Made by a program: the position numbers and the translations under genes. Below the pieces are notes generated by a model that saw only the letters and a program-made list of their open reading frames with translations, was not told the DNA's origin and did not search any database. Below, piece by piece: positions 3,441 to 17,764 of a DNA stretch of 34,819 nucleotides. Within the stretch, counting starts at the first letter, position 1. Each line of letters opens with the position of its first letter. The DNA is from Telmatospirillum siberiense (lineage in GTDB: Bacteria > Pseudomonadota > Alphaproteobacteria > Rhodospirillales > Magnetospirillaceae), in NCBI RefSeq assembly GCF_002845745.1, contig NZ_PIUM01000047.1, positions 1 to 34,819 on the forward strand, in the 5' to 3' direction.

Positions 3441-4026
3441 CCCACAGAATCCGCGCCTCCTCCTGACCGACGTTCACATAGGCATGCGGATGGTCGGAAC
3501 GGAAATAGAAAGAATCCCCCACCCCCAGGCGAAAGCGCCGCTCGCCGATCGTCATCTCGACGACGCCCTGCAAAACATAGCCGACCTCCTCGCCCTCATG
3601 CTGGATGGCCCCGTTGCTGCCGCCGCCGGGCGCGATGATATGGATGTTGGCCTGCATGAGCGCCCGATCGATGGACAGCGATTCAAGTTTCAATCCCCGC
3701 CCCCGCCCCGAGGGCGTGACCACCAGCACCGGGCGTTCCCCGGCACGCGCGATGACACCATCCTTGTCACCGGCGCCCGTCATCAGACTGGCAATATTGG
3801 TGCCGAGGGCCTGCACCAGGCGGTGCAGCAACTGCAATGACGGCAGCACGCGATCGCATTCTATCTTCGAAATCAGGCTTTCCGAACAACCCACCTTGAG
3901 CGCCAGTTGCGCCATGGTCATTCCCTGGAGATGCCGGGACATCCGCAAGGTACCGCCGAACGCCGGCGGCATGCCGTCGACCAGGCCGTCGACGGTGTCC
4001 GTGTTGATCGATCGTTTGCGCGCCAA
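3418..4026 (-). CDS. XRE-family regulator with C-terminal cupin domain
   Basis: A 202-residue transcription factor. Residues ~24-80 form an XRE helix-turn-helix (MAQLALKVGCSESLISKIE), and ~124-198 form a small-molecule-sensing cupin barrel with metal-site-like residues around H143-E147 and the HPH at 179-181. Such proteins usually control neighbouring catabolic genes by binding a ligand in the cupin. The start is taken as the TTG at 4026-4024 because AAGGGGG lies a suitable distance upstream and homology to the family begins soon after; an ATG at 3972 would be too far into the domain region. The gene follows porB on the same strand after a 140-base gap and probably controls the aminotransferase/POR operon. 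Its 3' end overlaps the cyclase gene. Confidence 0.85.
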   Translation of the reverse strand: MARKRSINTDTVDGLVDGMPPAFGGTLRMSRHLQGMTMAQLALKVGCSESLISKIECDRVLPSLQLLHRLVQALGTNIASLMTGAGDKDGVIARAGERPVLVVTPSGRGRGLKLESLSIDRALMQANIHIIAPGGGSNGAIQHEGEEVGYVLQGVVEMTIGERRFRLGVGDSFYFRSDHPHAYVNVGQEEARILWVNSPATF

Positions 4027-8486: not shown

Positions 8487-9839
8487 ATGGCTGTCGGGAT
8501 CAAGCGCGTCGTGGACAATGATCCGGCCTACTGGGATGCGGCTTTGGAAACCCAGAGCCGCCGGGATTGGGACGACCTCAAGCTGGCGCTCCTGCAAAAG
8601 CATCTCCGCCACGCCTATGCCAATTCCCCCTTCTACCGCTCGAGTTTCGACGCCGCCCGGGCCCACCCCGACCAGGTGAAGAGCCTCGATGACATCCGCC
8701 GCTTCCCCTTCATCAATAAGCGCACGCTGCGGGACCGGCAGTTGGCCGTGCCGCCGTTCGGCGATCTGGTGGCCGTCCCGGAGCGCGACATCGTCTATAT
8801 CTCGGCCTCCAGCGGCTCGACCGGCGTTCCCACCGCCTCGCCCTTCACCCAGGGCGATTTCGACGACTGGATCGATTACGAAGCCCGGCAGTTCTGGTCG
8901 TCGGGCATGCGGCCCACCGACCGTTATTGCCACTCGCTGAATTTCTCGCTGTTCATCGGCGGACCTTGCGTCCTGGGCGCGCAGAAGCTGGGGGCGCTCA
9001 GCATCCATGCCGGCACGGTTCCATCCGAGCGGCTGCTGCAGATCCTGCGGCAATTTCAGGCCAGCATCATCTGGACCACGCCGTCCTATGCCTGGTACCT
9101 GGGCGAGACCGCCCAGAAAGAGGGGATCGACCTCAGGAAGGATCTTGCGGTGCGCCGCATCTTCGTGGCCGGCGAACCGGGGGGATCCATCGCCGAGACG
9201 CGCAACCGCATCGAGGATTTATGGGGCGCCTCGGTCTACGATTATTACGGCCTGTCCGACATTTTCGGCTCCTGCGCCGGCATGTGCGAGGAAAAGAACG
9301 GCCTGCACTGGGCCGAGGATCATATCCTGGTCGAGGTTCTCAATCCCGAGACCGGTGAACCGGTGGCCGAAGGCGAACGCGGCGAGATGGTGCTGACGAC
9401 GCTGAAGAAGACGGCGCGCCCGATGATCCGCTTCCGCACCGGCGACATCGTCAGCTTCACCTCGGAACCCTGCGCCTGCGGCCGCACCGCGATCCGCATG
9501 GAGGGCGTGCACGGACGCGTCGACGACATGCTGATCATCAAGGGGGTGAACATCTTTCCGAGCGACGTCGAATCCATCGTGCGCCGCGACCATGACCTGA
9601 CGGGCGAATACAAGCTGGTGGTCGAACGGATCAATCACCTGGATCAGCTGACCGTCGAGATCGAAAAGATCGTCGGCTACAACGGCAGCGACGAGGACCT
9701 GGCCCAACACTTCAGCAAGCGGCTGAAATCGGTAACCGGCGTCACCGCCAAGGTGACGGTGCTGCCCCCCGACACCTTGCCGCGGGCGACACACAAGGCA
9801 AAGCGCGTCGAAGACCGCCGGACCGGAGTCTGGAACTGA
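8487..9839 (+). CDS. phenylacetate-CoA ligase-like AMP-forming acyl-CoA synthetase
   Basis: A 450-residue member of the ANL superfamily, PaaK branch, that would activate a carboxylic acid to its CoA thioester via an acyl-adenylate. Seen: the nucleotide-binding loop SSGSTG (~108-113), YGLSD in the central motif, RFRTGD with the following CACGR, and the C-terminal KGVNIFPSDVE segment. The length is typical of PaaK proteins. It lies just upstream of a thiol dioxygenase and a rhodanese and opposite an aminotransferase/POR operon. The acid could be an aryl-acetate, or (inference) a sulfur-containing acid such as 3-sulfinopropionate or 3-mercaptopropionate. No usual phenylacetate-pathway partners (paaABCDE) are in the window. 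Confidence 0.88.
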   Translation: MAVGIKRVVDNDPAYWDAALETQSRRDWDDLKLALLQKHLRHAYANSPFYRSSFDAARAHPDQVKSLDDIRRFPFINKRTLRDRQLAVPPFGDLVAVPERDIVYISASSGSTGVPTASPFTQGDFDDWIDYEARQFWSSGMRPTDRYCHSLNFSLFIGGPCVLGAQKLGALSIHAGTVPSERLLQILRQFQASIIWTTPSYAWYLGETAQKEGIDLRKDLAVRRIFVAGEPGGSIAETRNRIEDLWGASVYDYYGLSDIFGSCAGMCEEKNGLHWAEDHILVEVLNPETGEPVAEGERGEMVLTTLKKTARPMIRFRTGDIVSFTSEPCACGRTAIRMEGVHGRVDDMLIIKGVNIFPSDVESIVRRDHDLTGEYKLVVERINHLDQLTVEIEKIVGYNGSDEDLAQHFSKRLKSVTGVTAKVTVLPPDTLPRATHKAKRVEDRRTGVWN

Positions 9840-9959: not shown

Positions 9960-10556
9960 ATGGCCAATGTGAACCGCCTGCGCGACTTCGTCATCGAAGC
10001 CACGCATCTGGTGGAAAAGCATCGCGATAACGAATCCGCCCTGCTGGCGGAGGCCAAACCGCTGCTCGCCGGACTTATCGCCTCGGACGACTGGTTGCCC
10101 GAGGACTATGCCGTCGCCGATCCCTTGCGCTACCGGCAGTATCTTCTTCATGCCGATCCGCTGGAACGTCTCTCGGTGGTCAGCTTCGTCTGGGGCCCAG
10201 GCCAGCGCACGCCGGTCCATGACCACCGGGTCTGGGGACTGGTCGGCGTGCTGAGGGGCGCCGAACTGTCCACCGGATTCAGCCGCGCCTCCGACGGACG
10301 CCTTGTTCCCGGCCAGGAAGACCGCATCGAATCCGGCGACGTGGTGGCCGTATCGCCCACCATCGGCGACATCCACAGCATCGCCAACGCCCTGCCCGAC
10401 GCCCCATCGATCAGCATCCACGTCTATGGCGGCAACATCGGCGCCGTCCGCCGCGCCTCCTTCGATCCGCAGACCGGCGAGGAACGCCTTTTCATCTCCG
10501 GCTATTCGAACGAACGCCTGCCCAATCTGTGGGACCGCTCGCGGGAGAATGGATGA
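9960..10556 (+). CDS. thiol dioxygenase, Gln-type (3-mercaptopropionate dioxygenase-like)
   Basis: A 198-residue cupin dioxygenase that adds O2 to a thiol to give a sulfinate, using mononuclear Fe(II). The three iron ligands are H87 and H89 (in PVHDHRVWG) and H140 (in GDIHSIAN). The Ser-His-Tyr triad is S153, H155, Y157. The substrate-carboxylate position is Q60 (RYRQYLLH), which from memory of the family marks the Gln-type enzymes that prefer 3-mercaptopropionate, as in Pseudomonas aeruginosa PA2602, over the Arg-type cysteine dioxygenases. No database comparison was run. The start ATG has GAGGAG nine bases upstream. The rhodanese gene follows at once, an arrangement I recall from Pseudomonas. 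Cysteine activity remains possible. Confidence 0.92.
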   Translation: MANVNRLRDFVIEATHLVEKHRDNESALLAEAKPLLAGLIASDDWLPEDYAVADPLRYRQYLLHADPLERLSVVSFVWGPGQRTPVHDHRVWGLVGVLRGAELSTGFSRASDGRLVPGQEDRIESGDVVAVSPTIGDIHSIANALPDAPSISIHVYGGNIGAVRRASFDPQTGEERLFISGYSNERLPNLWDRSRENG

Positions 10557-10557
10557 C

Positions 10558-12144
10558 ATGCCCCGCCCATTCCAACCGGAAGATCTGCGCCGCCGCTGGC
10601 GGGACGGAAGCGAAATCGCCCTTTTCGACGTTCGGGAGGAAGGGCCTTACGCAGACGCCCATCCGCTTTTCGCCATATCCCTTCCCCTGACGCGGATCGA
10701 AAGCGACATTTTCGATCTGGTTCCCCGCCGCAACGCCCCGATCGTCCTCTATGACGACGGCGAAGGCCTGGCCGAACGGGCCCGGTCCCTGATCGAAGGC
10801 CTGGGCTATTCCGACGTGACCATCCTGGAAGGCGGGCTACGGGGCTATGAGCGTCGGGGCGAACTTTACCGCGACGTCAACGTTCCCAGCAAGGCGTTCG
10901 GCGAATTGGTGGAAAGCATCCGTCACACGCCCTCGCTCGCGGCATCCGAGGTCAAGGCGTTGCTGGACGGCGGCGCCGACATGGCCATCCTCGATTCACG
11001 CCGCTTCGAAGAATACCGCACGATGAGCATCCCCGGCGGAATCAGCGTACCGGGCGGTGAACTGGTATTGCGCGCCGGCGATGCCGCCCCCTCGCCCGAT
11101 ACCCTGGTCATCGTCAATTGCGCCGGCCGCACGCGCAGCATCATCGGCACGCAGTCGCTGATCAACGCCGGGCTTCCGAACCGGGTGGCGGCTTTGCGCA
11201 ACGGCACCATCGGCTGGACACTGGCCGGCTTTCCCCTTGACCGCGGACGAACGGAGAGCTTTCCGCCGACCAGCGAAACCGCCCGCGCCGGAGCCCGCGC
11301 CGCAGCTGCCCGGTGGGCCGAGCGTGTCGGGGTCCGCGTCATCTCCCGCGCCTGGCTGAGGGATTGGCTGACCGAAAGCAACCGCCACACCCTTTATCGT
11401 CTGGACGTCAGGACGCCCGAGGAATATGCCGCCGGCCATCCCCGGGGATTCCGATCGGCGCCCGGCGGTCAACTGGTGCAAGCCACCGATGAATGGGTGG
11501 CGGTACGCGGCGCCCGCATCGTTCTTTTCGACGACGATGGCGTCCGGGCCAGGATGACCGCATCGTGGCTGGTGCAAATGGGCTGGCAGGCCGTCGTCCT
11601 GGAGGAAGGCGCCCTGCCTTGCGACGAGACGGGAACCCCGGCCCGGCAAAGACCGCCGATACCTCCGGGCCGACCGCCGCTCTCGCCGGCCGATCTCGAT
11701 CGATGGGGGCCGGAGGCCTGCGTCCTCGACCTGGCGCGCAGTCCGGAATACGCCGCCGGCCATATTCCGGGCGCCCGGTTCGTCCTGCGCTCCCGCTTCG
11801 CCGCCGACCTGCCGGACCTGCCGGGCGCGGGGCCGATCGTTCTCACCTCGCCGGACGGCGCCGCCGCCGCCTATGCCGCGGAGGAAGCGGCGCGCCACAC
11901 CCGCCGCCCCGTCCATTTCCTGACGGGCGGAACCAAGGCCTGGAGCGACGCCGGCTTTCCGCTTGAACATGAAGCGCATCACTGGCTATCCCCCGCCATC
12001 GACGTCTACAAGCGTCCTTACGAGGGGACCGACAACGCGGCCGACGCCATGCAAGCCTATATCGACTGGGAACTGCAGCTCGTGGCGCAACTGGCCAACG
12101 ACGGCGTGTCCAACTTTCACGTGGTCCGTCCGGAAGCCCCTTAG
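10558..12144 (+). CDS. four-domain rhodanese-like sulfurtransferase with one catalytic cysteine
   Basis: A ~528-residue protein built of four rhodanese modules (~1-105, ~120-225, ~255-365, ~380-480) plus a C-terminal tail. Only the second module has an active-site loop with cysteine (CAGRTR, C188). The equivalent loops of modules 1, 3 and 4 read YDDGEG, FDDDGV and TSPDGA and lack cysteine. It would carry persulfide sulfur or hydrolyse or transfer thiosulfate sulfur in the cytoplasm. It lies directly after the thiol dioxygenase, so the pair probably handles sulfur from a thiol substrate. ATG 10558 is preferred because GGGAG lies ten bases upstream. An in-frame ATG at 10549 sits almost on top of that site and overlaps the dioxygenase stop. 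Confidence 0.88.
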   Translation: MPRPFQPEDLRRRWRDGSEIALFDVREEGPYADAHPLFAISLPLTRIESDIFDLVPRRNAPIVLYDDGEGLAERARSLIEGLGYSDVTILEGGLRGYERRGELYRDVNVPSKAFGELVESIRHTPSLAASEVKALLDGGADMAILDSRRFEEYRTMSIPGGISVPGGELVLRAGDAAPSPDTLVIVNCAGRTRSIIGTQSLINAGLPNRVAALRNGTIGWTLAGFPLDRGRTESFPPTSETARAGARAAAARWAERVGVRVISRAWLRDWLTESNRHTLYRLDVRTPEEYAAGHPRGFRSAPGGQLVQATDEWVAVRGARIVLFDDDGVRARMTASWLVQMGWQAVVLEEGALPCDETGTPARQRPPIPPGRPPLSPADLDRWGPEACVLDLARSPEYAAGHIPGARFVLRSRFAADLPDLPGAGPIVLTSPDGAAAAYAAEEAARHTRRPVHFLTGGTKAWSDAGFPLEHEAHHWLSPAIDVYKRPYEGTDNAADAMQAYIDWELQLVAQLANDGVSNFHVVRPEAP

Positions 12145-12273: not shown

Positions 12274-12441
12274 ATGATGGCCAAGGCAAACGCCGTTGTG
12301 ATCGATCTTGAGGAATTTCGCCGCCGCCGCGATTCGGCGCGCGACAAACATGTCCCTTCCGCCAGTCAGCAGGCCTGCCCGATGATGATGTGGTATCCCG
12401 TCCCCGTCTGGTACGTATTGCCCTACTGGCAAGCCATGTGA
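12274..12441 (+). CDS. 55-aa hypothetical protein with Met/aromatic-rich C-terminus
   Basis: A small open frame with a recognisable ribosome-binding site (AGGG, about 5 bases upstream of ATG). The N-terminal half is soluble and charged (VVIDLEEFRRRRDSARD, ~8-24). The C-terminal half is C35-P-MMM followed by a Trp/Tyr/Pro-rich stretch ending QAM. No known domain is recognised. Its TGA overlaps a possible GTG start of the regulator as GTGA (12438-12441), so the two are probably coupled. The Cys/Met/Trp-rich tail echoes the nearby methionine-rich protein and might bind a metal; that is inference. A fortuitous frame cannot be excluded. Confidence 0.6.
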   Translation: MMAKANAVVIDLEEFRRRRDSARDKHVPSASQQACPMMMWYPVPVWYVLPYWQAM

Positions 12442-12446
12442 CGTCG

Positions 12447-13079
12447 ATGCCGAGGGAGGGTTTGCCGCCCGGCGAGGCACAACTGACGTCGGATATCGTC
12501 GCCGGCTCGCCCAACGGACTGGTTGGCATCGTCGGTGAAAACCTTCGGCGCTTGAGAACGCGCAGGGGTCTGTCTCTTGAACGTTTGGCCAAGGTGAGCG
12601 GCGTCAGTCGCGCCATGCTGGGCCAGATCGAACTGGGCCGCAGCGCCCCCACCATCAATGTTCTTTGGAAGATCGCCCATTCCCTGGATCTTCCCTTCTC
12701 CGCCCTGATCAGCGAAGCCCCCACCCAGGACCAGGCGATGGTCATGCGGCGCTCCGAAAGCAAGATCCTGCTGTCGCAGGACGGTCGTTTTTCGTCGCGC
12801 GCGCTGTTTCCCTTCGATGGGGAACGCAAGGTTGAATTCTATGAATTACGCCTGGCCGGACAGGCCGTGGCCAAATCCGAAGCCCATGCCGTCGGCACGA
12901 CCGAAACGATCGTCGTGAACCGGGGGCAATTGGAGGTGGAAATTCACGGACGTGTTCACCGGCTCGACGTCGGCGACAGCGTCATCTTCGAAGCGGATGC
13001 TGATCACGCCTATCGCAATCCGGGTCATGACGAGGGACTTTATTACCTCGTCATGACCTATGTCGAAAGCCGCCTCTGA
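12447..13079 (+). CDS. SutR-like XRE-cupin transcriptional regulator
   Basis: A 210-residue regulator with an XRE helix-turn-helix (~30-87; SGVSRAMLGQIELGRSAPT) and a C-terminal cupin (~125-205; HAVGTTETIVVNRGQLEVE, GDSVIFEADADHAYRN). The layout and the AMLGQIE...PT...LWKIA...L.PFS..IS pattern closely resemble E. coli SutR (YdcN), a regulator of sulfur-utilization genes. This fits its place between thiol-sulfur genes and the methionine-rich protein gene. The start is uncertain: ATG 12447 is used, while GTG 12438 would overlap the small upstream ORF by four bases. It probably acts on the AT-rich boxes in this window (inference). Confidence 0.85.
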   Translation: MPREGLPPGEAQLTSDIVAGSPNGLVGIVGENLRRLRTRRGLSLERLAKVSGVSRAMLGQIELGRSAPTINVLWKIAHSLDLPFSALISEAPTQDQAMVMRRSESKILLSQDGRFSSRALFPFDGERKVEFYELRLAGQAVAKSEAHAVGTTETIVVNRGQLEVEIHGRVHRLDVGDSVIFEADADHAYRNPGHDEGLYYLVMTYVESRL

Positions 13080-13112
13080 AAATTTACGCGTTCGCCGATG
13101 AACGCCCCGGCA

Positions 13113-13472
13113 TCACGCCATGCAGCACATCATCGGCATGCCGCCGCAGGTCATCATCATCGGCATGCCCATGGCCATCATGGACGCCATCTTCTCGCAG
13201 CACATCTTCATCATTTCCATGGTCATGCCGCCGTCCATCGGCATCATCTTGCAGACCATGCCGGCATCGGTCATCTCGACCGTCATCTTACACATCGGCA
13301 TCATCATCGGCATCGGCATACCCATACCGCCACCCATCATCGGCATCGGCATGCCCATGCCACCGCCCATCATCGGCATCATCATGGACATCATGTTGGG
13401 CATCGTCATCATTCCCATGGGCATGTTCATCGGCATTTGCATGGGCATCGGCATTTGCATCGCGGGCATCAT
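13113..13472 (-). CDS. methionine-rich small protein (46% Met, 7 Cys)
   Basis: A 119-residue protein with 55 methionines and seven cysteines (C61, C74, C91, C92, C109, C116, C117). Residues 1-60 are nearly all Met with Pro, Gly and Gln (MPMQMPMNMPMG type). Residues 36-57 hold two 11-residue repeats of the GGGMGMPMPMM kind. Residues 61-119 are a Met/Cys domain with spaced acidic and basic residues (CKMTVEMTDAGMVCKMMPM). There is no signal peptide, so it is probably cytoplasmic. AAGGA ten bases upstream of ATG 13472 fixes the start; the frame stays open further upstream but loses the composition. No function is known to me. Candidates are Cu(I) binding, oxidant scavenging or a methionine/sulfur store. 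It converges on the SutR-like regulator gene. Confidence 0.85.
   Translation of the reverse strand: MMPAMQMPMPMQMPMNMPMGMMTMPNMMSMMMPMMGGGMGMPMPMMGGGMGMPMPMMMPMCKMTVEMTDAGMVCKMMPMDGGMTMEMMKMCCEKMASMMAMGMPMMMTCGGMPMMCCMA
13303..13380. repeat. 33-base tandem repeat inside the Met-rich gene
   Basis: The unit beginning ATCATCGGCATCGGCAT starts at 13303 and again at 13336 and 13369, two full 33-base copies and a partial third. The copies differ only at a few, mostly third-codon-position, bases, so the encoded 11-residue unit is kept. It arose by in-frame duplication within the coding sequence. Confidence 0.85.
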
Positions 13473-13825
13473 TTTCGAGGATCCTTCTATCTTTTTCGAA
13501 CCAAACGGCGTCGATGGGCAGAGTATCCCCACCATCCCGCAACGCAGCAACCGGCATATCGGAGCCGCCTGCGGTTTGATCCAATAAAACGGAAGCCCCT
13601 CCATCAAAGGCGGCGAGATATCCAGGATATCGGCATTTCCTCCGTTATCTTGGAAAAAGACATGAAAGCCGTCGCATCGGCACATACCTCGATATGCAGA
13701 AACGATGTCATGCCAAATGCTTATCCCAACCTGCGATGATCAAAACTGATCAGCACCCCTCAGGCGCCGGGCGGATTTCTCCGAAACCCTCAGGCTTTCG
13801 CTCGCATAAGCTCGCTGGCCCGATA
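13473..13825. other. intergenic region between Met-rich protein gene and FAD-protein gene
   Basis: About 350 bases of ordinary composition lie between the Met-rich gene start and the FAD-protein stop. The segment nearest 13473 must contain the Met-rich gene's ribosome-binding site (13482-13486) and promoter. A pair of TGATCA sites separated by AAAC lies near 13737-13753. No convincing gene or strong terminator was found. Confidence 0.5.
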
Positions 13826-16741: not shown

Positions 16742-17764
16742 ATGCCGATCGGAAAATATGTAATTTTGGCCGCAGGCGCCCTTGCCGGGCTCCTCGCCCT
16801 TCCGCCCCTCTCCCAGGCCGAGGAGGTACCGGCCGTGGTGCGATTCGGCTATCTGAACGGCCCCCGCCCGTGGATTTTGGGCAAGGCCGACCAGTCTTTC
16901 GACAAGGCTTTGGGGACCAAGGTACAGTGGATCAATTTTCCCAACGGCCCCAATGAACTCAATGCCCTGGCCGCCGGCGAGGTCGATATCGGACGCATCG
17001 GTTCGGTACCGACCGTATCGGCCCTGGTCCGCAAAGTTCCGATCAAGGTGATCGCCGTCTCCGGCGTGATCGCCACCAGTGAACGCCTGATCGCCCGCAA
17101 AGGCATCGACAGCGTCAAGGCGCTGGAGGGACATGCGGTCGCCTACCCGCCGGGGTCGACCGCCCATTACGCCCTGCTCGCCGCCTTCAAGGTCCATCAG
17201 GTCGATGTCTCGAAGGTCCGGCAGGTGCAATTGAAACCCGGGGACCTGCTCGCCGCCTGGAAGCGGGGCGACATCGACGCGGCCTATGTCTGGGGGCCCT
17301 TCTCCCAGCAGTTGGAAGGTGAAAACGGCCACGCCATCCTGGCCACCAAGGATCTGCAGCCGGCCGGCTATTTCCTGTTCAACGATTACGTGGTGCGCAA
17401 GGAATTCGCCGAAAAATATCCCGGCCTCGTCGTTAAATTCCTGAAGACCTTCGGCGACACCGTGGCCCGCTACAAAGCCGATCCCGACGGTTCGGCGGCC
17501 ATCATCGCCAAGGAATTGGACCAGGATCCGGCGGCGGCCAAGGATACCCTGGCGGGATTGATCTATCCTCCGTTGAACGAACAGCGGACCACGGCATGGC
17601 TGGGCGACGGCCACGACAGCGGCAATGCGGTGATCACCAAGAGTTTCGCCGATACCGCGCGCTTCCTTGTCGAGCAGGGAGAATTGCGCGCTGCGGATCT
17701 GCCGTCCGATTTCGCACCCTTCATCGACACCAGCTTCCTCGCCAAGGCGGTCGCCGCTCCATGA
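16742..17764 (+). CDS. tauA: taurine/sulfonate ABC transporter, substrate-binding protein
   Basis: A 340-residue periplasmic binding protein with a Sec signal peptide (~1-26, ending LSQA). The segments VRFGYLNGPRPWILGKAD, ALAAGEVDIGRIGSVP, PPGSTAHYALLAAFK and AAWKRGDIDAAYVWGPF follow the E. coli TauA pattern, including the GSTxHY ligand-loop region. It delivers a sulfonate such as taurine to the TauC/TauB membrane complex. No taurine dioxygenase (tauD) or other desulfonating enzyme follows, so the substrate is inferred only from family. The stop overlaps the tauC ATG as ATGA. Its promoter carries the GTTATAT palindrome. Confidence 0.9.
   Translation: MPIGKYVILAAGALAGLLALPPLSQAEEVPAVVRFGYLNGPRPWILGKADQSFDKALGTKVQWINFPNGPNELNALAAGEVDIGRIGSVPTVSALVRKVPIKVIAVSGVIATSERLIARKGIDSVKALEGHAVAYPPGSTAHYALLAAFKVHQVDVSKVRQVQLKPGDLLAAWKRGDIDAAYVWGPFSQQLEGENGHAILATKDLQPAGYFLFNDYVVRKEFAEKYPGLVVKFLKTFGDTVARYKADPDGSAAIIAKELDQDPAAAKDTLAGLIYPPLNEQRTTAWLGDGHDSGNAVITKSFADTARFLVEQGELRAADLPSDFAPFIDTSFLAKAVAAP

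Follow-up and report, generated by a model that had tools for sequence, protein, structure and literature searches.

The Locus and Its Genes

The window, by which is meant the whole 34,819-nucleotide stretch of DNA analysed here, carries at 13113-13472 on its minus strand an open reading frame (ORF) that translates to 119 residues and a stop codon (13113-13115) and has one match in the 6.2-Mb assembly. Translation reproduced the composition given in the preliminary description of this DNA, with 55 Met (46%) and seven Cys, sulfur residues together making up 52% of the protein. Residues 1-60 form a Met/Pro/Gly arm and residues 61-119 a conserved Met/Cys domain. The two 11-residue repeats described earlier are present as two arm copies of MPMMGGGMGMP, encoded by a tandem repeat at 13302-13380 (minus strand; period 33 nt, 2.4 copies, 91% match), and the ribosome-binding site that had been proposed can be read from the sequence as a Shine-Dalgarno-like AGAAGGA at 13482-13488 (minus strand), 9 nt before the ATG. 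Nothing resembling a sigma-70 promoter was found on the Met-rich strand. Directly after the stop codon lies a terminator-like stem with a T-containing tail (13088-13105, minus strand), the 701-base region holding two terminator-like sites against 0.3 expected. No Sec or Tat signal is visible in the window protein by eye, because residues 1-60 contain neither Lys nor Arg, and no hydrophobic signal-like segment is seen, in keeping with the reported absence of a signal peptide.

Convergent with the Met-rich gene is the gene for an XRE-cupin (SutR-like) regulator at 12447-13079 on the plus strand, the start of which is uncertain (the longest ORF begins at 12390), with HTH_3-type and Cupin_2 domains in one chain. 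Next to the regulator, and on the same strand, a cysteine-dioxygenase-like gene (9960-10556; Pfam CDO_I at 23.3 bits against a cut-off of 23, with no NCBIfam match) overlaps one that encodes a four-rhodanese-domain protein (10549-12144, scanned as ORF 10303-12144). A taurine/aliphatic-sulfonate-type ABC binding protein, below NCBIfam cut-offs, is encoded at 16742-17764 (plus strand), and the earlier picture of a SutR-like regulator with sulfur genes nearby therefore stands for the window. The cysteine-dioxygenase-like and four-rhodanese genes are not neighbours common to the other loci compared. The window also carries an AMP-binding acyl-CoA ligase-type gene at 8487-9839 (plus strand).

Coding Status of the Met-Rich Frame

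Since ATG reads CAT on the opposite strand, antisense frames across the gene are open, and include a His-rich ORF of 213 aa (13098-13739, plus strand) and one of 155 aa (13120-13587, plus strand), the latter favoured by a crude codon scorer. These open frames and the codon score are what would suggest that no Met-rich protein exists and that the locus is a CAT/ATG-rich repeat or an antisense gene. The frames were compared in 55 of 56 distinct homologues, Pseudomonas-type and alphaproteobacterial, the Archangium member being excluded. The ratio pN/pS was 0.29 (42 Pseudomonas-type members) and 0.43 (13 others) in the Met frame and 0.68-1.49 in the other five, and median NG86 dN/dS was 0.23 (858 of 861 Pseudomonas-type pairs with dS 0.1-1.2) and 0.32 (71 of 78 other pairs), the pairs sharing history and thus not being independent. 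The Met frame is the sole frame under purifying selection among the 55 homologues tested, and the start codon, the Shine-Dalgarno sequence and an upstream motif are conserved. The Met-rich ORF is a genuine protein, as had been claimed; the frame test rules out the antisense ORF or repeat as the true gene, leaving that reading with next to no probability.

A Family of Met/Cys-Rich Proteins

A search of 199 genomes of relatives (family f1) listed six with a Met-rich match, namely the window genome, G001, G004, G044, G049 and G030; the match in G030 was dropped as false, and the genes of G042 and G050 were found later via the regulator. A scan of contigs gave 16 Met-rich loci, 12 of them from Pseudomonas and the remainder from Magnetospirillum fulvum, M. 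molischianum, a Telmatospirillum metagenome-assembled genome and Archangium lansinium. Profile searches found the gene in seven of 398 genomes across the phylum (the window genome included), in 29 of 149 genomes of genus g202, and in four of 146 genomes of the alphaproteobacterial genus g106, a number that rose to seven after searching via the regulator. Genus g202 is termed Pseudomonas-type here, its proteins matching named Pseudomonas loci and one of its regulator ORFs being identical to that of P. canadensis. In total, 100 extractions gave 56 distinct DNA sequences.

Pooled over these 56 members, Met makes up 41.9% and Cys 8.3% of residues, with Leu at 1.2%, Val at 0.8%, Phe at 0.6%, Ile at 0.3% and zero Trp or Tyr. 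The family is thus a natural protein built nearly without Leu, Ile, Val, Phe, Trp and Tyr, in which Met replaces the usual hydrophobic residues. Members have a common start like MMxAMQM and a conserved C-terminal Met/Cys domain. This domain occurs twice in the Pseudomonas form (159-173 aa, 14-17 Cys) and once in the non-Pseudomonas forms (5-7 Cys), which add a variable Met/Pro/Gly/Asn arm. Cys positions are conserved across the family, and columns with a Met consensus retain Met in 91% of cells in the Pseudomonas type and 84% in the others. One copy (G860; L133/L064) lacks the usual in-frame N-terminal arm and is possibly decaying.

Among 20 members scanned, there were no matches in Pfam or PHROGs and only two unrelated names in NCBIfam (best E 0.54 for three members and 0.012 for one), and a PDB profile search with the family returned nothing at E 1. 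AlphaFold2 predicts two similar strand-strand-helix-strand-strand units for the Pseudomonas form, with blocks reaching a pLDDT of about 84 (mean 61.7, pTM 0.60, from a 12-row alignment); the model of the window protein is poor (mean pLDDT 48), showing strand-strand-helix for residues 61-100 and little confidence in the arm. The models led to no fold assignment. A literature search returned no conserved Met-rich family that has half of its residues sulfur-bearing and a dedicated sulfur-type regulator, and we rate this combination as a categorically new system. Single Met-rich bacterial proteins are known, among them MrpX, and some serve as assay substrates (PMC3514235). One of these substrates, FeNos/MRP1 of Nostoc PCC 73102, a hypothetical protein with 41 Met (33%) and 15 Cys (12%) (PMC3514235), is similar in make-up to the window family.

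The XRE-Cupin Regulator

Clustering of ORFs at 17 loci, comprising the window and the 16 loci of the contig scan, left the regulator as the sole neighbour common to all, each of the 16 carrying it. The regulator gene and the Met-rich gene converge in the window genus, Pseudomonas, g106, G049 and Archangium, and diverge in the Magnetospirillum group. Within g202, the 29 of 149 genomes that carry the Met-rich gene are also the ones with an orthologue of the regulator (E below 1e-89; Fisher p 1.6e-31, without correction for kinship), a thirtieth regulator match being a weak paralogue (9e-22). The regulator falls wholly or partly within the fetched locus (about 1.5 kb each side) in 27 of the 29 carriers; it lies 1.3 kb from the Met-rich gene in G627, and on a separate contig in G641, where the Met-rich gene is at a contig end. 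It was likewise found in two of three carriers from the sister genus g204, the third gene being at a contig end, and regulators of at least 72% identity adjoin the gene in seven of seven g106 genomes, the Met-rich gene of G860 being shortened at its N-terminus. The proposal that homologues might lie next to SutR-like genes was therefore strongly borne out. In family f1, a close regulator (200 bits or more) is present in 12 of 199 genomes, with the Met-rich gene adjacent in seven; the other five have no Met-rich gene adjacent or within stretches of 10-15 kb.

The regulator shares 36% identity with E. coli SutR. In a tree of 62 rows, the regulators of the Met-rich loci and of the encapsulin loci described below form one branch of 39 rows (support 94/94, below the starred level), with SutR, a long branch flagged by the tool, grouping with seven other rows outside it. 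SutR/YdcN and the Pseudomonas XRE-cupin regulators have the same domain architecture and regulate neighbouring genes (PMC7901475), but they are paired with an enzyme or transporter, whereas the regulators of the module are paired with a Met-rich protein and belong to a branch that does not include the long-branched SutR. The best PDB match of the regulator is 1Y9Q (1.2e-23; next 5.4e-9), to which E. coli SutR is also a strong match. Trouillon et al. (PMC7901475) are the source both for D-methionine in the cupin pocket of 1Y9Q and for the inhibition of neighbouring genes by XRE-cupin proteins. By analogy with 1Y9Q, the window regulator would bind a sulfur metabolite, although the D-methionine of that structure may be adventitious.

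In Archangium lansinium (L018), the regulator is 58% identical to that of the window and the same upstream site is present, which suggests that the myxobacterial module was acquired by horizontal transfer. A further XRE-cupin regulator gene in the window (3451-4011, minus strand), 27% identical to the first and with no match to 1Y9Q at 1e-5, adjoins 2-oxoacid:ferredoxin oxidoreductase genes (TPP_enzyme_C, POR_N).

Association With the Encapsulin-2A Operon

Four of the five f1 regulator carriers that have no Met-rich neighbour (G030, G036, G045, and G046) have the regulator 2-6 kb away from a gene for a type 2A encapsulin shell protein (Pfam SrpI-like). By Pfam, G030 and G045 encode an N-extended cysteine desulfurase-type enzyme (Aminotran_5), serine acetyltransferase and SrpI, together with DUF2325 in the former and two Cys/Met-type PLP enzymes in the latter; the same encapsulin and desulfurase genes were recognised by eye in G046, and the regulator of G002 has neither a Met-rich gene nor the SrpI operon beside it. 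The two associations meet in M. fulvum and M. molischianum, where a regulator-led encapsulin/desulfurase operon diverges from the Met-rich gene, with the promoter of the regulator between. The operon of the M. fulvum regulator includes a desulfurase that matches NF041166 (family 2A encapsulin cargo) over the cut-off and an SrpI 87% identical to that of G030; both species also have serine acetyltransferase, DUF2325 and CBS-type genes, identified by eye. A small DUF2325 protein is encoded between SrpI and serine acetyltransferase at L141 9903-10271 (Pfam) and L017 3442-3804 (by eye).

Across the 199 f1 genomes, the close regulator and SrpI occur together in 10, the regulator alone in two and SrpI alone in nine (Fisher 2.6e-10, kinship not corrected). 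In g202, SrpI is absent from 27 of 29 Met-rich carriers and present in three of 120 non-carriers, so the Met-rich protein mostly works without the SrpI compartment in the Pseudomonas-type sample. The encapsulin-2A system (PMC8049743, PMC8346489) thus has in common with the Met-rich module its sulfur function and, in Rhodospirillaceae, the regulator lineage and an upstream motif; it differs in consisting of a shell and an enzyme, as against a single Met/Cys-rich protein, and in being mostly missing where the module occurs in Pseudomonas.

A Candidate Operator

Aligned regions upstream of the Met-rich genes contain an inverted repeat with the consensus CCTCCGnTTTAnTGGAnnAAA. Its window copy, CTTCCGTTTTATTGGATCAAACC (13573-13595, minus strand), is proposed as an operator; it lies 100 nt upstream of the ATG and is the sole exact match of the IUPAC pattern in the 6.2-Mb genome, the pattern having been drawn from sites that include it. 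A second proposed operator (13636-13656, minus strand; one mismatch to the pattern, 10.7 bits) lies 61 bp further upstream, and G001 and G004 have a second TCC..GGA site at the same 61-62 bp spacing, scoring 14.9 and 3.4 bits. With up to one mismatch, the pattern has 12 matches in the genome in all against three for the reversed control. Three genomic positions (G000:C23:77842 and 80229, C60:11505; L160, L161, L165) carry an identical 21-base sequence that departs from the pattern at one base.

A weight matrix was built from seven Met-rich sites picked by eye, which scored 19.4-26.5 bits on leave-one-out. It reaches at least 18 bits 88-109 nt before the ATG in 10 of 14 non-Pseudomonas Met-rich upstream regions, seven of the ten being training sites, and scores 11.7-14.9 bits in the other four. 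Alignment and matrix scan did not find the motif in Pseudomonas Met-rich upstream regions, and therefore either the Pseudomonas regulator reads another site or the operator inference fails there.

Upstream of SrpI, the matrix scores 20.6-23.9 bits in all six genomes in which the regulator adjoins the operon (G030, G036, G042, G044, G046, and G050), with about 90-120 nt between the end of the site and the estimated start of SrpI. The site is found in none of the seven SrpI loci that have no adjoining regulator (G000, G011, G028, G049, G051, G052, and G100; at most 8.1 bits), the window genome's own SrpI included (8.1 bits), and mononucleotide shuffles of the SrpI upstream regions reach at most 15.2 bits. 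The comparison (Fisher 5.8e-4) excludes G045, which is at a contig edge, and G002, G033, G135, G147, and G176, and it represents few independent events, all six positives belonging to genus g8; since three of the seven negatives are also from g8, the contrast is not only one of kinship. The SrpI-upstream site adjoins the DUF2325 gene. A shared regulator lineage and a shared site of the Met-rich and SrpI genes are well supported by these sequence comparisons, which lead us to infer binding of the motif by the regulator. The preliminary description had noted neither the upstream site nor the encapsulin link. A candidate operator and an XRE-cupin regulator are thereby on offer for the encapsulin-2A/cysteine-desulfurase operon in Rhodospirillaceae (L017 508-5299, L021, L141, L142).

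Possible Functions of the Module

The reading that we favour, tentatively and with a probability of roughly 0.43, is a two-gene sulfur-response module in which a cytosolic Met/Cys-rich sulfur reserve or sink would be switched by a sulfur-metabolite-sensing XRE-cupin regulator. The regulator would bind the two inverted repeats that precede the Met-rich gene by about 100 and 160 bp. On the model of XRE-cupin proteins, it would keep the gene repressed until its cupin detects a sulfur metabolite, for which methionine or a related compound is the likeliest candidate. The derepressed cell would then make a small cytosolic protein, half of whose residues bear sulfur, that would act as a sulfur/methionine reserve or sink and be degraded by proteases once sulfur runs short; repression, ligand, storage and turnover are all things that we infer. 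The protein may belong to the same sulfur programme as the encapsulin-2A/cysteine-desulfurase compartment, because in relatives the regulator lineage and its DNA site precede the genes of that compartment. The conserved domain and the predicted AlphaFold repeat units suggest a role more specific than that of a mere store, which need not conserve its sequence. In S. elongatus, SrpI is reported to be induced by sulfur starvation, and knockouts of SrpI compartment genes gave no growth phenotype (PMC8049743). That induction, if the two systems are co-regulated, counts against a reserve filled at sulfur excess; were it to hold under the regulator described here, starvation could also switch on the Met-rich protein, and a sulfane-sulfur or scavenging role would then be favoured over a store.

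A sulfane-sulfur binder of this kind would use a soft Met/Cys surface to hold polysulfide or elemental sulfur, protecting or partitioning the output of the desulfurase and encapsulin, and would be made on starvation together with SrpI, the starvation induction of which (PMC8049743) speaks for it. The motif and neighbourhood in common with SrpI and desulfurase and the conserved Cys positions would suit such a role, as would the genus of the window, where in G001 the module lies among genes for a sulfite/nitrite-reductase-TusA fusion, JAB and ThiF proteins, a Cys/Met-metabolism PLP enzyme and a MetQ/NlpA-family lipoprotein, the first three adjoining the regulator, in a neighbourhood picked out after the fact and without statistics. 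We nevertheless consider it improbable, ranking it below the oxidant sink discussed next, given the lack of SrpI in most Pseudomonas-type carriers, the small number of Cys in the non-Pseudomonas forms and the fact that we know of no precedent for Met residues holding sulfur(0). The sulfite/nitrite reductase-type protein of G001 (L035 7253-9577, minus strand) has its TusA domain at the C-terminus.

MrpX of Azospira suillum, like the window family a small bacterial protein very rich in Met, is periplasmic and is found with msrPQ and an oxidant-responsive sigma factor, whereas the window family shows no signal peptide and has a SutR-like regulator. A cytosolic counterpart, in which Met would take up HOCl or peroxide and be recycled by MsrA/MsrB as proposed for MrpX, would agree with the Met-rich composition and with the retention of Met in the consensus columns, and in vitro, Msr is reported to restore other Met-rich proteins that peroxide and hypochlorite have oxidised (PMC3514235). 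Such an oxidant sink is unlikely, however, as the 17 loci have neither an Msr gene nor an oxidant regulator conserved beside the Met-rich gene (the ORF clustering, which did not rely on gene names, gave no conserved msrPQ (yedYZ) linkage), the regulator is of the SutR/XRE-cupin kind with a presumed site common to a sulfur operon, and no export signal is visible. The setting is thus unlike that of MrpX, as the preliminary description had held. Buffering of a soft metal (Cu(I), Ag(I), or Hg), to which the Met- and Cys-rich motifs and conserved Cys positions could lend themselves, is very unlikely and the least supported of these three alternatives: the sole conserved partner is a SutR-like XRE-cupin protein and neither a metal-type regulator nor a copper gene, and in the cytosol Met ligands are weak competitors of thiols. 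A metal-type ABC permease does lie beside the regulator in G036, but it was recognised by eye alone and at a locus that has no Met-rich gene. Among the functions listed earlier for the protein, the methionine store has accordingly gained from the link to the sulfur operon, owing to which a sulfur/methionine store is favoured over Cu(I) binding or an MrpX-like sink, while the latter two have lost ground, having no conserved neighbour.

If the favoured reading of a sulfur reserve or sink is extended, the family would be a dedicated bacterial protein-based reserve of sulfur (Met/Cys), a protein counterpart of the encapsulin-2A system with its own methionine-type-sensing XRE-cupin repressor, spread as a two-gene module between Pseudomonas, Alphaproteobacteria and Myxococcota; this larger proposal is possible but doubtful. 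We know of no bacterial protein that stores sulfur amino acids. The idea of a sulfur store is directly testable, the module comprising one small gene, a dedicated regulator and a candidate DNA site, with homologues in fluorescent pseudomonads. Sulfur is likewise held as protein Met in the Met-rich seed storage proteins of plants (2S albumins and delta-zein), for which homology with the window family is not claimed and in which the Met content is lower, that of delta-zein being 24% (PMC3514235).
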